From Lachnospiraceae bacterium (lineage in GTDB: Bacteria; Bacillota_A; Clostridia; Lachnospirales; Lachnospiraceae): a stretch of 5,618 bases of DNA. The notes under the pieces are model-generated. The model saw nothing but the letters and a program-made list of their open reading frames with translations, made no database searches and had not been told where the DNA came from. A program made the position numbers and the translations under genes. The DNA lies in the NCBI GenBank assembly GCA_017540915.1, contig JAFYAD010000082.1:1-5618 (forward strand), written 5' to 3'. Of this stretch, positions 1,392 to 4,914 are shown piece after piece; positions within the stretch are counted from its first letter, which is position 1, and each line of letters begins with the position of its first letter.

Positions 1392-3695
1392 TCAAACGTG
1401 AATTCCGTTTGTTTTATTTTTCTCAGTCGTTTTGTCCTGTTCATTATTTATCTCAGGCTGTTCATTATTTTTCTTTGACTGTCCGTTATTCATTATCTTC
1501 GGCGGTTCCCTGTTCTCCTGTACAGGATTGATGATCATGTCCTCCTTCAGCACCTTCGATATTAAAGTGTTTGCATTCGCCATCTCGACAAGCTGTTCTC
1601 CTGAATACTGTTCTATCACATTCTTGAATGCCTGTTCTGATTTTAATTTATTTTCAAAGGCTTTCGGTGAGACAGCCGGATTATCTGCCTCCAAAAGCTC
1701 CCTGTGATTCCTGAAGTACTCACGGGTCACGATTTGGGCGGCATAGATCAGCTTGCTGGTTTTCATATAATCCGCATCGATATTTGGCAGCTTTAGCATT
1801 ACATCCAGACCTGCGTTTTTATCAACGTATTCCTCTGCCGGCGTTTTCTTCCTGACAATTTTGGCTTTATCCGGAGCAGGCTTTTCTGCCTGCTTTTTTG
1901 ATTTCTTTTTCTTTGCTTCGGCTGCTTTACGTTTTTCTTCGGCAGCCTTTACCCTTTGGTCATGCTCTTCCTTGCGTTTCTGCCTTTGCTTTTCCCTTAT
2001 GGGCGCAAGCTCCGCTCTCTTTTCTGCCATTTCATCGATCTGTTTCTGAACCTCCTCCGGTATCACCTCATCCCTGTCAAATGGCTTGGGGTCAAGCTCC
2101 ACTGTTGGATAAACGGGCTTTTTATCAAGATCTCTCACGACCATGTCAGCAGACATTTTCAGCTCCGCAGCGCCGTAAAGACGCGCTACTCCGGCAGGTG
2201 TTCCCGGCACCTTATCCTTTTTTTCGATATATTTATCAGCCAGCTTTTTCAGGCGTTTTGCACTCGCCCTGATATCTTCTTTTAACTCATCTATAGTCTT
2301 ATTTTCGGGATTTGAGTTCTCATCCCCGTCCAGTGCCTTTTTTAACCGGCAGAATTCCTCGGCTTCCTTGCGAAGCTTTTTATGCTCATCCGTCTCCGAT
2401 TTGAAGATACCTGCTCGCGCTTTATTAAATCTTTTCAGAGCATCCTCCGGATCTGAGCTGAACACAACGGGAGTTTTATCCAATCTGTGTTCTCTTGAGC
2501 TCTCAACATCTTCACTTAATGCCTTGATTAAATACTCATCCAAAAAGCCCTGTTTTTTTGCAGTCTGAGTCAACTCTCCTATCTTTTCTATCAGTTTTTT
2601 TCTTTGATCTTCTGTTTTTAGCGGTGTGTTCTGAAGCTGCTCTATAAGCTTATCGCATTCCGACAAAAATTCCTCCTGCCCCGGTTTATATTCGGCTTTA
2701 TTTTTGGGCTTCTGACTATGCGGCTGTCTGTCTATCAATGCGTTTATACGAGCAGCTTTGACACCGTATGTAAAAGTTGCCAGCATGTTCAGATCTTCAA
2801 TAGGCCATCCGTTCCTGAGTCCCGCCTGCATTCCCGTCATAGAATACAGTATGACCGCAGTTCCTCTCTCATAACGTTCATTTAATGTTTCTGCCGGATC
2901 TACTCCGTCTGCCTTTCCAAAAAACTTGTCCATAACCTGAACTTCCTTTCCAAAGGAATTGGTTTTTGCAAGCTTTTCAGCCATGGGCAAGGTTTCTTCA
3001 ATCTGCTTTAACAACTGATCACGAAGTTTTATGGACTCCGCCGGTGACATCTGACCTTTTTCCTTTTCCTCAATATAATCCGTCATGGTATTGAGGATCT
3101 TGTCAACTCCGATGACCACACCCGAAAATGGCAGACCATGCTTTTCCATGCGAAGACCATCCATCATAAGATCCGAGATCTTTCGATTTGAATTTTGAAT
3201 CAGCGGCTGCAATCCGTTCCCTAAGATACAATGTCTCTTGAAAAACTTCAGTCCGTATCCTCTCGCACTGCGTTCGACACAACCCACATTGATACGGGTT
3301 ATATAATCTTTTGCATATTCTATCTCTTCATCCGTATAAGCATTGCCTTCCTTCAATTCTTCAAAGGCTTTGCCAATATCTGCTTTGTAGCGTTCGATTA
3401 TCTTTTTACTCTGCTCTCTGAGCTTTTTGTATCCCTTTCGATCTTTAACCTGAAACGCTCTGATATACGTTCCATCCATACCCGGAATATCATCGAACGC
3501 CAAGCTGTAAATATAGTCATTATTATCCGGATCCGGATTTAACGCAAGCTTTCCGACCGCCGGAAACAGCTCCCCTAATGGCTGTACATACTCACCGGCA
3601 AACTCTGTTGAGTGAGACGTAAACAATTCAGTCAGGTCATTGGACATATCCTCTTTGAGGATGTTATAGATCTCTTTTTTTGTTCTGGGTGCCAT
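1392..3695 (-). CDS. Large charged protein of unknown function (767 aa), probably cytoplasmic
   Basis: I do not recognise this protein. It has no signal peptide and no membrane segment, and is rich in Lys and Glu. Residues 1-320 look like a mostly helical folded region, with less charged patches at 33-80, 140-200 (including a C-V-E-R-S-A-R-G-Y-G stretch) and 275-320. Residues 330-500 are charged and helix-rich. Residues 545-610 form a Lys/Glu/Ala-rich probable coiled coil or single helix with a basic run (KKKKSKKQ). A second compact helical segment spans about 616-720. Residues 735-767 are a low-complexity Asn/Gln tail with seven-residue repeats. No catalytic motif or metal-binding cluster is evident. 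The start at 3695 is chosen because AGGGAGG stands eight bases upstream; an in-frame ATG at 3731 has no such site. It is a single-gene unit with its own terminator. Possible roles include a scaffold or structural protein; this is a guess. Confidence 0.85.
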   Translation of the reverse strand: MAPRTKKEIYNILKEDMSNDLTELFTSHSTEFAGEYVQPLGELFPAVGKLALNPDPDNNDYIYSLAFDDIPGMDGTYIRAFQVKDRKGYKKLREQSKKIIERYKADIGKAFEELKEGNAYTDEEIEYAKDYITRINVGCVERSARGYGLKFFKRHCILGNGLQPLIQNSNRKISDLMMDGLRMEKHGLPFSGVVIGVDKILNTMTDYIEEKEKGQMSPAESIKLRDQLLKQIEETLPMAEKLAKTNSFGKEVQVMDKFFGKADGVDPAETLNERYERGTAVILYSMTGMQAGLRNGWPIEDLNMLATFTYGVKAARINALIDRQPHSQKPKNKAEYKPGQEEFLSECDKLIEQLQNTPLKTEDQRKKLIEKIGELTQTAKKQGFLDEYLIKALSEDVESSREHRLDKTPVVFSSDPEDALKRFNKARAGIFKSETDEHKKLRKEAEEFCRLKKALDGDENSNPENKTIDELKEDIRASAKRLKKLADKYIEKKDKVPGTPAGVARLYGAAELKMSADMVVRDLDKKPVYPTVELDPKPFDRDEVIPEEVQKQIDEMAEKRAELAPIREKQRQKRKEEHDQRVKAAEEKRKAAEAKKKKSKKQAEKPAPDKAKIVRKKTPAEEYVDKNAGLDVMLKLPNIDADYMKTSKLIYAAQIVTREYFRNHRELLEADNPAVSPKAFENKLKSEQAFKNVIEQYSGEQLVEMANANTLISKVLKEDMIINPVQENREPPKIMNNGQSKKNNEQPEINNEQDKTTEKNKTNGIHV
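1437..1499 (-). repeat. Three 21-base tandem repeats coding the Asn/Gln tail
   Basis: Three imperfect 21-base units (1437-1457, 1458-1478, 1479-1499) lie end to end near the 3' end of the 767-codon gene. Each starts with CTGT on the plus strand and contains a (T/C)(C/G)TTATT- or CATTAT-like core. They encode seven-residue units NNGQSKK, NNEQPEI and NNEQDKT. The unit length is a multiple of three, so gain or loss of copies would keep the frame. Confidence 0.72.
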
Positions 3696-3703
3696 ATTTT
3701 TAA

Positions 3704-3710
3704 CCTCCCT
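3704..3710 (-). promoter_or_regulatory. Ribosome binding site that fixes the start of the 767-codon gene
   Basis: On the minus strand AGGGAGG ends eight bases before the ATG at 3695, a near-ideal Shine-Dalgarno site. The in-frame ATG twelve codons upstream (3731) is preceded by a GC-rich stretch with no such site. That upstream ATG also falls only about 13 bases from the predicted transcription start. Confidence 0.85.
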
Positions 3711-3750
3711 GTCAACTGCATGCCGCTGCAACGGCTACCGTACACTATAT

Positions 3751-3782
3751 ATTATACATCTGTTTTTCATTTAAGGTTGCAA
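3751..3782 (-). promoter_or_regulatory. Probable promoter of the 767-codon gene
   Basis: A perfect TATAAT -10 box lies at 3751-3756 on the minus strand, about 55 bases before the start codon. The best upstream -35 match is TTGCAA (3777-3782), but its spacing of 20 bases is too long, so the -35 is weak or absent. Transcription would begin near 3744. Further TATAAT-like boxes lie upstream within the hairpin array. Confidence 0.5.
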
Positions 3783-3835
3783 TAAGCTTCGTATACCTTC
3801 TCCGGGAATACAGTCTAAGCCATATACTGCCAACG

Positions 3836-3859
3836 ATAACAGACACTTGTGTCTGTTAT
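3836..3859. repeat. Perfect 11-bp palindromic hairpin
   Basis: ATAACAGACAC (3836-3846) pairs perfectly with GTGTCTGTTAT (3849-3859) across TT. The right arm runs into the first TTATACCACA copy (3856-3865). It lacks the mismatch and internal loop of the other array hairpins, so it may be of different origin. Confidence 0.8.
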
Positions 3860-3919
3860 ACCACAACATCTAAGCTCAAACTTCACCTTCGGTTCGTTTT
3901 AGCTAAGAGTTTGGTGTAA
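3856..3919. repeat. Array hairpin A with TTATACC/GGTGTAA ends
   Basis: The core stem is TCTAAGCT (3869-3876) with AGCTAAGA (3901-3908), broken by one A-A mismatch (3872, 3905). Above it AAAC (3878-3881) pairs with GTTT (3896-3899), then an internal loop, then ACC/GGT around TTC. Outside the core, TTATACC (3856-3862) can pair with GGTGTAA (3913-3919) using one G-T wobble. It is a diverged copy of hairpin B at 4080-4120, identical at 33 of 41 positions. Confidence 0.75.
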
Positions 3920-3964
3920 GTTCTGCTAAGCTCGCTCCGCTCGCTAAGCAGAAGCTATTATACC
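3913..3964. repeat. Array hairpin with GC-rich CGCTCCGC head
   Basis: The stem 3921-3931 with 3943-3953 has 10 pairs and one A-A mismatch (3928, 3946). Next come facing TC/TC bases (GA/GA on the minus strand), a GC/GC pair of bases and a TCC loop. GGTGTAA (3913-3919) can also pair with TTATACC (3958-3964) to lengthen the stem, but the same arm could instead close hairpin A. Confidence 0.75.
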
Positions 3965-3974
3965 ACATCCGATG

Positions 3975-4016
3975 TCACTAAATTCAGCCTTCACTTCGTT
4001 CGGCTTCATTAAGTGA
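3975..4016. repeat. Array hairpin with two G-A internal loops
   Basis: TCACT (3975-3979) pairs with AGTGA (4012-4016), then an A-A mismatch (3980, 4011), AAT/ATT, facing TC/TC bases (GA/GA on the minus strand) and AGCC (3986-3989) with GGCT (4002-4005). Inside the apparent loop a second GA/GAA module with an AC/GT step and a GAA loop can be drawn on the minus strand. Confidence 0.72.
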
Positions 4017-4023
4017 TCCTTGC

Positions 4024-4057
4024 TGTGAGAGTTATCACTTTAGTGATTACTCTCACA
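4024..4057. repeat. Long array hairpin with one central mismatch
   Basis: TGTGAGAGT (4024-4032) pairs with ACTCTCACA (4049-4057). A T-T mismatch (4033, 4048) follows, then ATCAC with GTGAT around TTTA. This makes 14 base pairs with a single internal mismatch, the most stable simple hairpin of the array. On the minus strand the mismatch is A-A. It has no T run on either side. Confidence 0.8.
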
Positions 4058-4074
4058 CATCCGTTAGGTGTATA

Positions 4075-4127
4075 GGTAAATCTAAACTCAAACTTCGCCG
4101 TTGGCTTGTTTTCGTTAAGATTATACC
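4075..4127. repeat. Array hairpin B (second copy of hairpin A)
   Basis: GGTAAATCT (4075-4083) pairs with AGATTATACC (4118-4127) with one bulged A, so the third TTATACC copy is the lower right arm. An A-A mismatch (4084, 4117) stands where hairpin A has one. Then come AAC/GTT, AAAC/GTTT, an internal loop and GCC/GGC around GTT. Relative to A, two pairs changed on both sides (A-T to G-C and G-C to A-T), which keeps the fold. Confidence 0.75.
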
Positions 4128-4138
4128 ACAGATTCATC

Positions 4139-4159
4139 TCTGCTACTGCAGATTTTTTA
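4139..4159 (+). terminator. Weak terminator-like hairpin with T run
   Basis: TCTGC (4139-4143) pairs with GCAGA (4148-4152) around TACT, followed by TTTTTT. The stem is only five pairs and no gene ends upstream on this strand. It might stop plus-strand read-through from the array before hsp20, but support is thin. Confidence 0.3.
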
Positions 4160-4209
4160 TAGCGGTATTATACCTTTATGAAGTGTTCACAAAAAATTCA
4201 CAAATTTTA

Positions 4210-4236
4210 TTAGCACTCTCTCTTGACGAGTGCTAA
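4210..4236 (+). promoter_or_regulatory. CIRCE operator (HrcA binding site)
   Basis: TTAGCACTC (4210-4218), nine bases, then GAGTGCTAA (4228-4236): an exact match to the CIRCE consensus. HrcA binds it and represses heat-shock genes at normal temperature. The spacer and right arm contain the -35 box of the hsp20 promoter, so bound repressor would block RNA polymerase directly. Confidence 0.97.
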
Positions 4237-4251
4237 TAAACGTGATATTAT
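4223..4251 (+). promoter_or_regulatory. hsp20 promoter (sigma-A type)
   Basis: TTGACG (4223-4228), a 17-base spacer and TATTAT (4246-4251), with TG at 4243-4244 forming an extended -10. Transcription should start near 4258, giving a leader of about 129 bases. The -35 box overlaps the CIRCE operator. Confidence 0.88.
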
Positions 4252-4258
4252 GATCACA

Positions 4259-4361
4259 GTTCAAGGGAGAACCTGAACACAAGTACAAATGTTAACTGCA
4301 GGGTGTATCGAGATATCACGACATGCGAGCCGCATCCGTAAAACTCCCACACCCATAGCAG
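4259..4361 (+). other. Structured 5' leader of hsp20
   Basis: The leader can fold into a small hairpin, GTTCA (4259-4263) with TGAAC (4274-4278) extended by GG/CC past a bulged A. A larger domain follows: CTGC plus GGGTGT (4296-4299, 4301-4306) pairs with ACACCC plus GCAG (4349-4354, 4358-4361), enclosing ATGCG-AGC-CGCAT (4323-4335). CTCC (4344-4347) could alternatively pair with GGAG of the ribosome binding site (4374-4377). A role in stability or thermal control of translation is inference. Confidence 0.5.
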
Positions 4362-4386
4362 ACAATATGAAAAGGAGGCATGACTT

Positions 4387-4833
4387 ATGTTAGTACCGAG
4401 CATCTTTGGAGAAAACTTATTGGATGGATTTTTTGACGACGACTGGATGAGACCGGGCAGAACAGGAAGACCTGCTCCTATCCCTCATAACCTTGTGATG
4501 AAGACCGATATCAAAGAGACCGACGGTGGCTTTGAGCTGGCTATCGAGCTTCCGGGCTACAACAAAGAGGACGTTCAGGCAGAGCTTAAGGACGGTTACA
4601 TGACCATCTCCGCTACCAAGAAAGACGAGAAGGACGAAAAGGATGACAACGGCAAGTACATCCGCAGGGAGCGTTTCTACGGAAACTGCAGCAGATCCTT
4701 CTATGTGGGCGAAGAGGTTAAAGAAACCGATATCCAGGCGAGCTTTGAAAACGGCGTCTTAAAGGTATTCGTACCCAAGAAAGAGGCTGTGCCGGAGGTT
4801 CCTGAGAAGAAGTTCATACAGATCACCGGCTGA
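4387..4833 (+). CDS. Hsp20 / alpha-crystallin family small heat-shock protein
   Basis: This is an ATP-independent chaperone that holds unfolding proteins, normally as a large oligomer in the cytoplasm. The 148-residue length is typical. A short N-terminal arm rich in Phe, Asp and Pro (1-35) leads to the alpha-crystallin domain (about 37-131). Family marks include L-P-G-Y-N-K-E-D (55-62) and the G-V-L motif in F-E-N-G-V-L-K-V (120-127). An I-Q-I motif (144-146) near the C-terminus fits the I-x-I anchor that docks into a neighbouring subunit. A Lys/Asp-rich loop (78-90) precedes the R-R-E-R-F strand. AAGGAGG (4372-4378) stands eight bases before the ATG. The gene is alone, under a CIRCE-controlled promoter. 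Its orderly use of frequent codons suggests high expression when induced. The family call is firm; a specific symbol is not assigned because several names are in use. Confidence 0.96.
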   Translation: MLVPSIFGENLLDGFFDDDWMRPGRTGRPAPIPHNLVMKTDIKETDGGFELAIELPGYNKEDVQAELKDGYMTISATKKDEKDEKDDNGKYIRRERFYGNCSRSFYVGEEVKETDIQASFENGVLKVFVPKKEAVPEVPEKKFIQITG

Positions 4834-4872: not shown

Positions 4873-4914
4873 AACAAGACCGCAGGGGCATGTGAATGTT
4901 CCTACGGTCTTGTT
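4873..4914. terminator. Bidirectional terminator between hsp20 and the glycosyltransferase gene
   Basis: AACAAGACCG (4873-4882) pairs with CGGTCTTGTT (4905-4914), continuing past one C-A mismatch into AGG/CCT around a 14-base loop. On the minus strand the mismatch becomes a U-G wobble and the stem is continuous. It ends in TTGTTT then GCTT, so it serves the glycosyltransferase gene (stop at 4931) best. It lies 39 bases after the hsp20 stop and probably stops that transcript too, though the plus-strand T run is poor. Confidence 0.78.

Follow-up and report, generated by a model that had tools for sequence, protein, structure and literature searches.

The window, that is, the whole stretch of 5,618 nucleotides that was analysed, contains a divergent gap (3696-4386) located between an orphan ORF of 767 aa on the minus strand (1392-3695) and a gene for an Hsp20 small heat shock protein on the plus strand (4387-4833). 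The 767-aa ORF matched no Pfam family, and a search of the protein collection, in which 7984 candidates were scored, returned a single relative that is 98% identical. The gap holds four related hairpins, named B, C, D and F and given here in plus-strand coordinates. Hairpins B (3868-3908, with the outer extension TTATACCACAAC...GTTTGGTGTAA) and F (4075-4124) are of the long-core type and are the two copies described in the first-pass annotation, which had delimited the second one as 4080-4120. This hairpin pair is real, but the count of two was incomplete: it missed a third copy, D (3971-4018), which was identified by alignment between B and F and is the best match to the family described below, and a short relative, C (3920-3953; TTCTGCT-a-AGC-tc-GC-tcc-GC-tc-GCT-a-AGCAGAA), which scores 37.1 bits with covariance model R1 but was itself part of the training set of that model.

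Two other palindromes lie on the same stretch of the plus strand. Hairpin A (3835-3859), recognized by its fold, consists of GATAACA-N12-TGTTAT followed by ACCACA, and its flanks recur together with other palindromes in loci L099, L106 and L114. Hairpin E (4024-4057) is a 16-bp inverted repeat that falls outside the family. Interspersed among the hairpins are three minus-strand boxes that match the pattern TGTGGTATAA(T/C), namely TGTGGTATAAC at 3855-3865 and TGTGGTATAAT at both 3957-3967 and 4120-4130; these pattern matches presumably correspond to the extended -10 box of Gram-positive bacteria (TRTGNTATAAT). Hairpins B, C, D and F all have the same orientation, their GA-rich strand being the sense strand of the 767-aa ORF, and none of them has a stop codon nearby. 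As DNA, the region 3835-4140 folds far better than shuffled sequences (z -6.9). As RNA, copy F alone folds weakly on the plus strand (z -1.3 to -1.5) and with a z of -2.9 on the minus strand.

Architecture and covariation of the hairpins

Recomputation of the comparison between 3868-3908 and 4080-4120 reproduced the identity at 33 of 41 positions, the eight differences listed in the first-pass annotation, the A-A mismatch common to both copies, and the two compensated pairs, in which G3874-C3903 becomes A4086-T4115 and A3885-T3893 becomes G4097-C4105. The difference at 3901/4113 had been described as breaking a pair. One pair of the copy B fold is indeed broken, but this is not a loss, as the unpaired state is the norm of the family: the column holds a C in 71 of 73 distinct copies, giving a TC-TC mismatch, whereas copy B has, exceptionally, gained a pair. 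When eight substitutions were placed at random, at least two compensated pairs arose in 1.2% of 200,000 trials, and the two copies alone are therefore moderate evidence for selection on the fold. The fixed mismatches and the dispersed family are beyond the reach of a two-copy comparison.

The architecture common to the copies consists of an outer stem, an A-A mismatch, three base pairs, a TC-TC mismatch and, further inward, either a variable stem or a short loop, the short-core copies being without an inner stem. On the other strand the mismatches are T-T and tandem GA-GA, the latter succeeding one another like the rungs of a ladder. This strand gives the better RNA fold in 78 of 80 copies. 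Tandem GA steps and GNA triloops are stable in both DNA and RNA.

The arms of the hairpins covary. In an alignment of eight hairpins (A2), 94.3% of the 87 cells are paired and 10 of the 14 pairs show two-sided changes, with no one-sided change; none of 500 shuffles reached as high, and slid controls were at most 49% paired. Among 73 distinct copies, 95.1% of 762 cells are paired and two-sided changes occur in 10 of 11 pairs, again with none of 500 shuffles as high on both measures; 171 of the cells are changed on both sides. All these shuffles are a null that ignores relatedness. A set of 18 copies that contains no window sequences is 99.1% paired over 234 cells; it has two-sided changes in seven of 13 pairs, which 26 of 500 shuffles matched, and in 38 cells, which no shuffle matched. 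Further pair types showed no excess over the shuffles, which reached the observed value in 357 (A2), 40 (73 copies) and 413 (18 copies) of 500 cases.

Wobble pairs are scarce. The 762 cells of the 73 copies comprise 717 Watson-Crick pairs, eight GT and ten AC combinations, which would be wobble pairs on one or the other strand, and 27 other mismatches. A larger alignment (A4), made from 150 of 197 matches (129 distinct rows) with the 47 weaker matches left out, contains 1206 Watson-Crick pairs in 1290 cells, nine and 18 wobble combinations, and 57 other mismatches, 34 of which are T-C. The internal mismatches are nearly invariant: in the 73 copies, A (73) stands opposite A (72), and T (72) and C (73) stand opposite T (73) and C (71), and in A4 the A is present in all 129 rows on both sides, while TC, present in all 129, faces T in 129 and C in 123. 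RNA helices usually carry some G-U, and the near absence of wobble on either strand leans to a constraint at the level of DNA. It should be noted that helices of 3-4 bp between internal loops may be intolerant of wobble, which would weaken this inference. Since covarying arms are here combined with fixed mismatches and hardly any wobble, constraints at the DNA level and at the RNA level can be told apart in this family.

Distribution of the family and likeness to known repeats

We sampled 397 genomes of one gut-associated family, which we infer to be the Lachnospiraceae, reached from a relative of hsp20. Model R1 was made from alignment A2, with the four window copies in its training set, and at E<=0.01, with at most 15 candidates scored per genome, it matched in 162 of the 397. 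A second model, R2, was built from the 18 copies that include no window sequence. On the window it found D (63.4 bits, E 5.1e-14), F (46.3 bits, E 7e-10) and B (37.8 bits, E 8.3e-8, at 3870-3907), with C not found at E<=1. The first-pass annotation had proposed selection on the fold and not only a recent duplication, and had named the lack of copies elsewhere, or changes that ignore the pairing, as what would speak against it. Copies do exist outside the locus and their changes respect the pairing, which upholds the proposal with far more than two copies.

The absence of an R1 match is unreliable, because genomes G030 and G019 are R1-negative in the 397-genome scan and carry the element. A pattern derived from the consensus, CACTAARYTC-N(8-36)-TCRYTAAGTG, was present in 25 of 50 hand-picked genomes, at 0-100 copies per genome and with many carriers having fewer than ten, and the reversed pattern was found in none of the 50. 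Five genomes that are rich by R1 (G016, G053, G383, G054 and G324) have no exact-pattern copy. The richest genome by this pattern is G030, with 100 copies (53+47) in 3.3 Mb; its copies have an unusual long core, GCAAATCCCGC...GCGGGTTTGC, and the genome is absent among those positive with R1. Named loci gave access to 64 more genomes; 23 of them have the pattern, and none has a reversed match. Those carriers include an uncultured Clostridium MAG (L020, 28 copies), Candidatus Blautia merdavium (L027, 12), an Agathobacter MAG (L001, 10), Catonella morbi ATCC 51271 (L044, 4) and Blautia wexlerae (L049, 1). The five genomes titled Bacilli (L053, L072, L079), Erysipelotrichaceae (L064) and Anaerovorax (L059) had no exact-pattern copy. 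In the hsp20 neighbourhoods themselves (L001-L080, 0.8 Mb) R1 had no match at E<=0.01; the 23 carriers have the pattern elsewhere.

In a DNA search of eight relatives most matches were chance ones inside long frames, and array pieces came from G347 only. The spacing pattern TTATACCACN{65,95}TTATACCAC, used as a lead only, pointed to G306 and occurred in 10 of 397 genomes, and its reversed control in 7 of 397 (9 matches in G255 alone); G306, G347, G363 and G381 were accepted by eye for the hairpins inside. The pattern TTATACCACN{20,50}GTGATAA was found in 18 of 397 genomes and, since its reversed control was nearly as frequent (15), only the multiple hairpin-like matches of G347 and G363 were accepted, by eye. 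No match to plasmid or phage records was obtained for 3700-4200 (a 501-bp gap), and the exact pattern had 26 stretches in viral contigs, which are pattern matches only. A third pattern, GATAACAN{4,30}TGTTATACCAC, gave 81 stretches in viral contigs, of which one had a palindromic centre of at least 3 bp, and was dropped. Integron attC sites were a further candidate that was considered and set aside.

This repeat family, present in 162 of the 397 sampled genomes of one gut-associated family, has no Rfam match. The window gave none at gathering score and three below-gathering matches at a loose threshold, none of them over B, C, D or F. Seven matches in 20 loci of the family (riboswitches, tRNAs, Clostridiales-1 and the S4 leader) did not overlap the hairpin, and seven loci with related X1 hairpins had no match. 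A family hairpin lies just behind a lysine riboswitch in L243 (1253-1548), and another adjoins a Clostridiales-1 RNA in L249 (1501-1802). Among titles and the starts of abstracts, with most subscription journals outside the scope, the literature offered REP families and a survey tool, and nothing that resembles this hairpin family.

Judged by their sequences, the hairpins are members of a dispersed, REP-like family of palindromes of Lachnospiraceae-type bacteria: they are short imperfect palindromes, occur in many copies per genome and are extragenic, which are the broad traits of REPs. The REPs of Escherichia coli are likewise dispersed extragenic palindromes, some of them close behind stop codons (PMC12306157), but the family differs from them in its host bacteria, its sequence, its ladder of fixed mismatches and a frequent second hairpin at 62-65 nt. 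REPs tagged with GTAG or CGTC are also palindromic with complementary changes, and CGTC REPs are reported to occur without a dedicated transposase, according to PMC3733652 and PMC2817692; words beginning with Clostrid or Firmicutes are absent from the main text of both. The family, in contrast, carries no tag beside its hairpin, the flanks in alignment A3 (4-5 columns) being NTTC before and (T/C)(T/C)C after, with no GTAG or CGTC consensus. Nor does it show the arrangement of a RAYT-linked REP (REPtron), in which a Y1 gene is flanked by repeats: in 30 loci around Y1 genes (PF01797), no model match was found at E<=0.1. Like BIMEs, which are described as mosaic REP arrays of alternating orientation (PMC2817692), the family forms arrays of several hairpins, but its copies mostly share one orientation, as judged by eye. 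Finally, the terminator-like stem-loops near stop codons of low-GC Firmicutes, which mostly end in T-runs (PMC1590033), also lie close behind stops, whereas a T-run follows 4 of 218 GA-sense copies of the family (9 of 218 TC-sense).

Position relative to stop codons

Placement was studied in loci chosen by model score or list order, with ORFs of at least 100 aa as gene calls. Of 111 matches, duplicates included, 93 lie between ORFs, six inside an ORF of at least 70 aa and 12 at edges. The 93 inter-ORF matches are distributed over co-directional (59), divergent (27) and convergent (7) gaps. Counted as distinct gaps these are 38, 16 and 4, against 71, 25 and 18 for all gaps of at least 40 nt; these counts reveal no clear preference for co-directional gaps or for any other gap type. 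Where the neighbouring ORFs run in the same direction, the GA strand coincides with the sense strand in 47 of 59 cases and is the opposite one in 12, duplicates included.

Among 220 non-duplicate matches, 32 start within 10 nt of an ORF stop codon in the GA-sense orientation, 23 of them at 3-5 nt, as compared with 10 in the TC-sense orientation (Fisher p = 5e-4). At 11-30 nt behind the stop there are two GA-sense and ten TC-sense matches. Six of the ten TC-sense near-stop cases are at -11 or -10, and among the 32 GA-sense ones a single case (L442) is at -10; these would be frames that end in the TAA of the element itself. Another 12 of the 220 lie, GA-sense, 62-65 nt behind a stop codon, which suggests that a second hairpin follows the first at a fixed spacing of about 59 nt. 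It should be noted that most copies, 188 of the 220, lie outside the distance of 10 nt from a GA-sense stop. Pfam named 20 of the 32 upstream ORFs, as ribosomal protein S8 (9), ribosomal protein S13 (4), phosphoglycerate kinase (3), RpoA (1) and others (3); several stop-codon copies therefore lie behind rpsH, rpsM and pgk.

The gap between rpsH and rplF was inspected in 30 genomes, a non-random sample in which 18 were R1-positive and the rpsH hairpins of G049 and G050 were already known beforehand. Of these genomes 28 have rpsH, in 29 loci, and 27 gaps were readable, the elements being judged by eye. Ten gaps (159-326 nt) have the element at the stop codon, two have a piece of it and 15 (11-148 nt) are without it. 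Nine of the ten gaps with the element belong to R1-positive genomes and the tenth to G019, which is R1-negative. At a single orthologous position, then, some genomes have the element and others lack it; the counts are not an unbiased rate. The gaps behind rpsH thus form a natural series of orthologous sites, in which effects on operon expression would be directly comparable. Of 16 genomes with an element behind rpsH, 12 have three or four Watson-Crick pairs among the four of the inner stem, made by nine different stems; of the remaining copies, three have two of the four pairs and one is outside the expression. In four of the 16 copies AGC stands opposite GGT, with one non-pair.

Spread of the element and its possible role

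The cores of the element are more alike within than between genomes, with an identity of 0.79 against 0.45 (98 cores, 12 genomes; 0 of 2000 permutations), a contrast to which the variation of core length between genomes contributes. Copies also form tandem arrays, mostly in one orientation as judged by eye, with both orientations in L246 and L269. The reading that we favour, and to which we assign an even chance, is that the element is mobile, fold-constrained DNA whose retained copies have their effect in the mRNA, at the ends of genes. Copies would spread by DNA copying, through mobilisation or gene conversion by an enzyme, and those kept would work as stable mRNA hairpins at the 3' terminus of a cistron. 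There, by analogy with the REPs of E. coli, which are reported to stall ribosomes when they lie no more than 15 nt from a stop codon (PMC12306157, which cites its reference 17), the hairpin would meet the terminating ribosome and either shield the upstream message or set its output relative to the next gene; 33 of the 220 matches lie GA-sense at most about 15 nt from a stop codon, the window copies not being among them. The placement at stop codons and the strand bias suggest such an action at the cistron end, while the near absence of wobble and the likeness within genomes suggest that the fold also matters for the copying of the DNA. Both levels may hold, in that a mobile palindrome is spread and the retained copies serve the mRNA.

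The same facts may be read, with a smaller though still substantial probability, as those of selfish DNA, whose fold is kept so that an enzyme handling single-stranded DNA can copy or move the element, as in REPs and REPINs, a host function in RNA being secondary or absent. Homogenised cores, tandem arrays, presence or absence at the rpsH gap and the scarcity of wobble on either strand are all consistent with it. The strand bias and the stop-codon placement, however, would need an additional assumption, such as a choice of target. The Y1 transposase domain PF01797, moreover, occurs in 14 of 20 element-rich genomes, being absent in six, and in 10 of 20 supposedly element-less ones, a comparison that is weak because the latter group included G030 with its 100 exact copies. 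With no clear excess of PF01797, and with no linkage in the 30 Y1 loci described above, mobilisation by a RAYT is unsupported.

A bolder version of the favoured reading, which we regard as rather unlikely, is that the element is a structured mRNA element placed precisely behind the stops of essential genes (rpsH, rpsM, pgk), whose ladder of sheared GA steps would be read by a protein at the terminating ribosome; it would spread as mobile DNA, and some arrays, including that of the window, would contain extended -10 boxes as well and thereby take promoters along.

The remaining explanations fare far worse. Mutation instead of selection could produce compensated changes without function if template switching in imperfect palindromes rewrote one arm from its partner, and the observed two-sided changes, with their few wobble intermediates, speak for it; such a correction would, however, remove the A-A and TC-TC mismatches as well, yet 123-129 of 129 rows keep them in each column, and these invariant or near-invariant mismatches make such an origin highly improbable. 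Equally slight is the probability that the hairpins serve the two flanking genes as a terminator of transcription, as a leader resembling a riboswitch, or as an ordinary operator. The three minus-strand boxes within the array point in this direction, as does the position of TGTGGTATAAT, in a related array, upstream of an apparent gene start in L118-L122, L233, L236 and L239 (by eye), but a sigma-70 scan of the gap found no promoter site in minus-strand orientation, 214 of 218 GA-sense copies have no T-run behind them, no Rfam family covers the hairpins at gathering score, and the copies follow unrelated genes. A recent local duplication with neutral drift would explain the 33 identities among 41 positions, but with paired changes in copies from many other genomes, and with D, F and B found by a window-free model, its probability is negligible.

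As for the window array itself, which is in the sense orientation of the 767-aa ORF, our guess would be that it is a leader of that ORF, which it may drive or insulate, or the remnant of the 3' end of a lost gene. Its nearest parallel is locus L223 of genome G306, which contains a close counterpart of window positions 3856-3967 with the same flanks and -10-like boxes. In L223 the inner stem AAAC/GTTT is replaced by GATC/GATC, and in the counterpart of hairpin C the arms TTCTGCT/AGCAGAA have become TTCTACT/AGTAGAA, a compensated change from G-C to A-T.

Some minor observations concern the surroundings. Within the window, an ATP synthase a subunit gene (224-1069) has a relative at E<=1e-20 in just 24 of the 397 family genomes, the best with 75% identity. 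Upstream of hsp20, at 4206-4240, is a perfect 13-bp inverted repeat, TTTATTAGCACTC-N9-GAGTGCTAATAAA, which we take to be the CIRCE operator of HrcA, and a repeat resembling it likewise precedes hsp20 in L002, L003 and L005. An inverted repeat with a 4-nt loop 3' of hsp20 (4873-4914) is probably the terminator of that gene. In the Agathobacter MAG, the region upstream of hsp20 (L001:60-794) is a tandem array with a period of 145 bp and copies about 90% alike. A second hairpin type, with the core ACGAG...CGACG, a length of 62-64 nt and the flanks TTATACCAC/GTGATAACA, alternates with small palindromes in G347, G363 and G306 (L118-L122, L130, L140, L233-L240). Judged by eye, its outer end TGTGGTATAAT precedes apparent gene starts by about 30-120 nt, and the type may form a separate family of repeats that carry promoters. 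The two hairpin types adjoin each other within a single array at L223:1421-1611 (G306), where they look like modules of one mosaic element.
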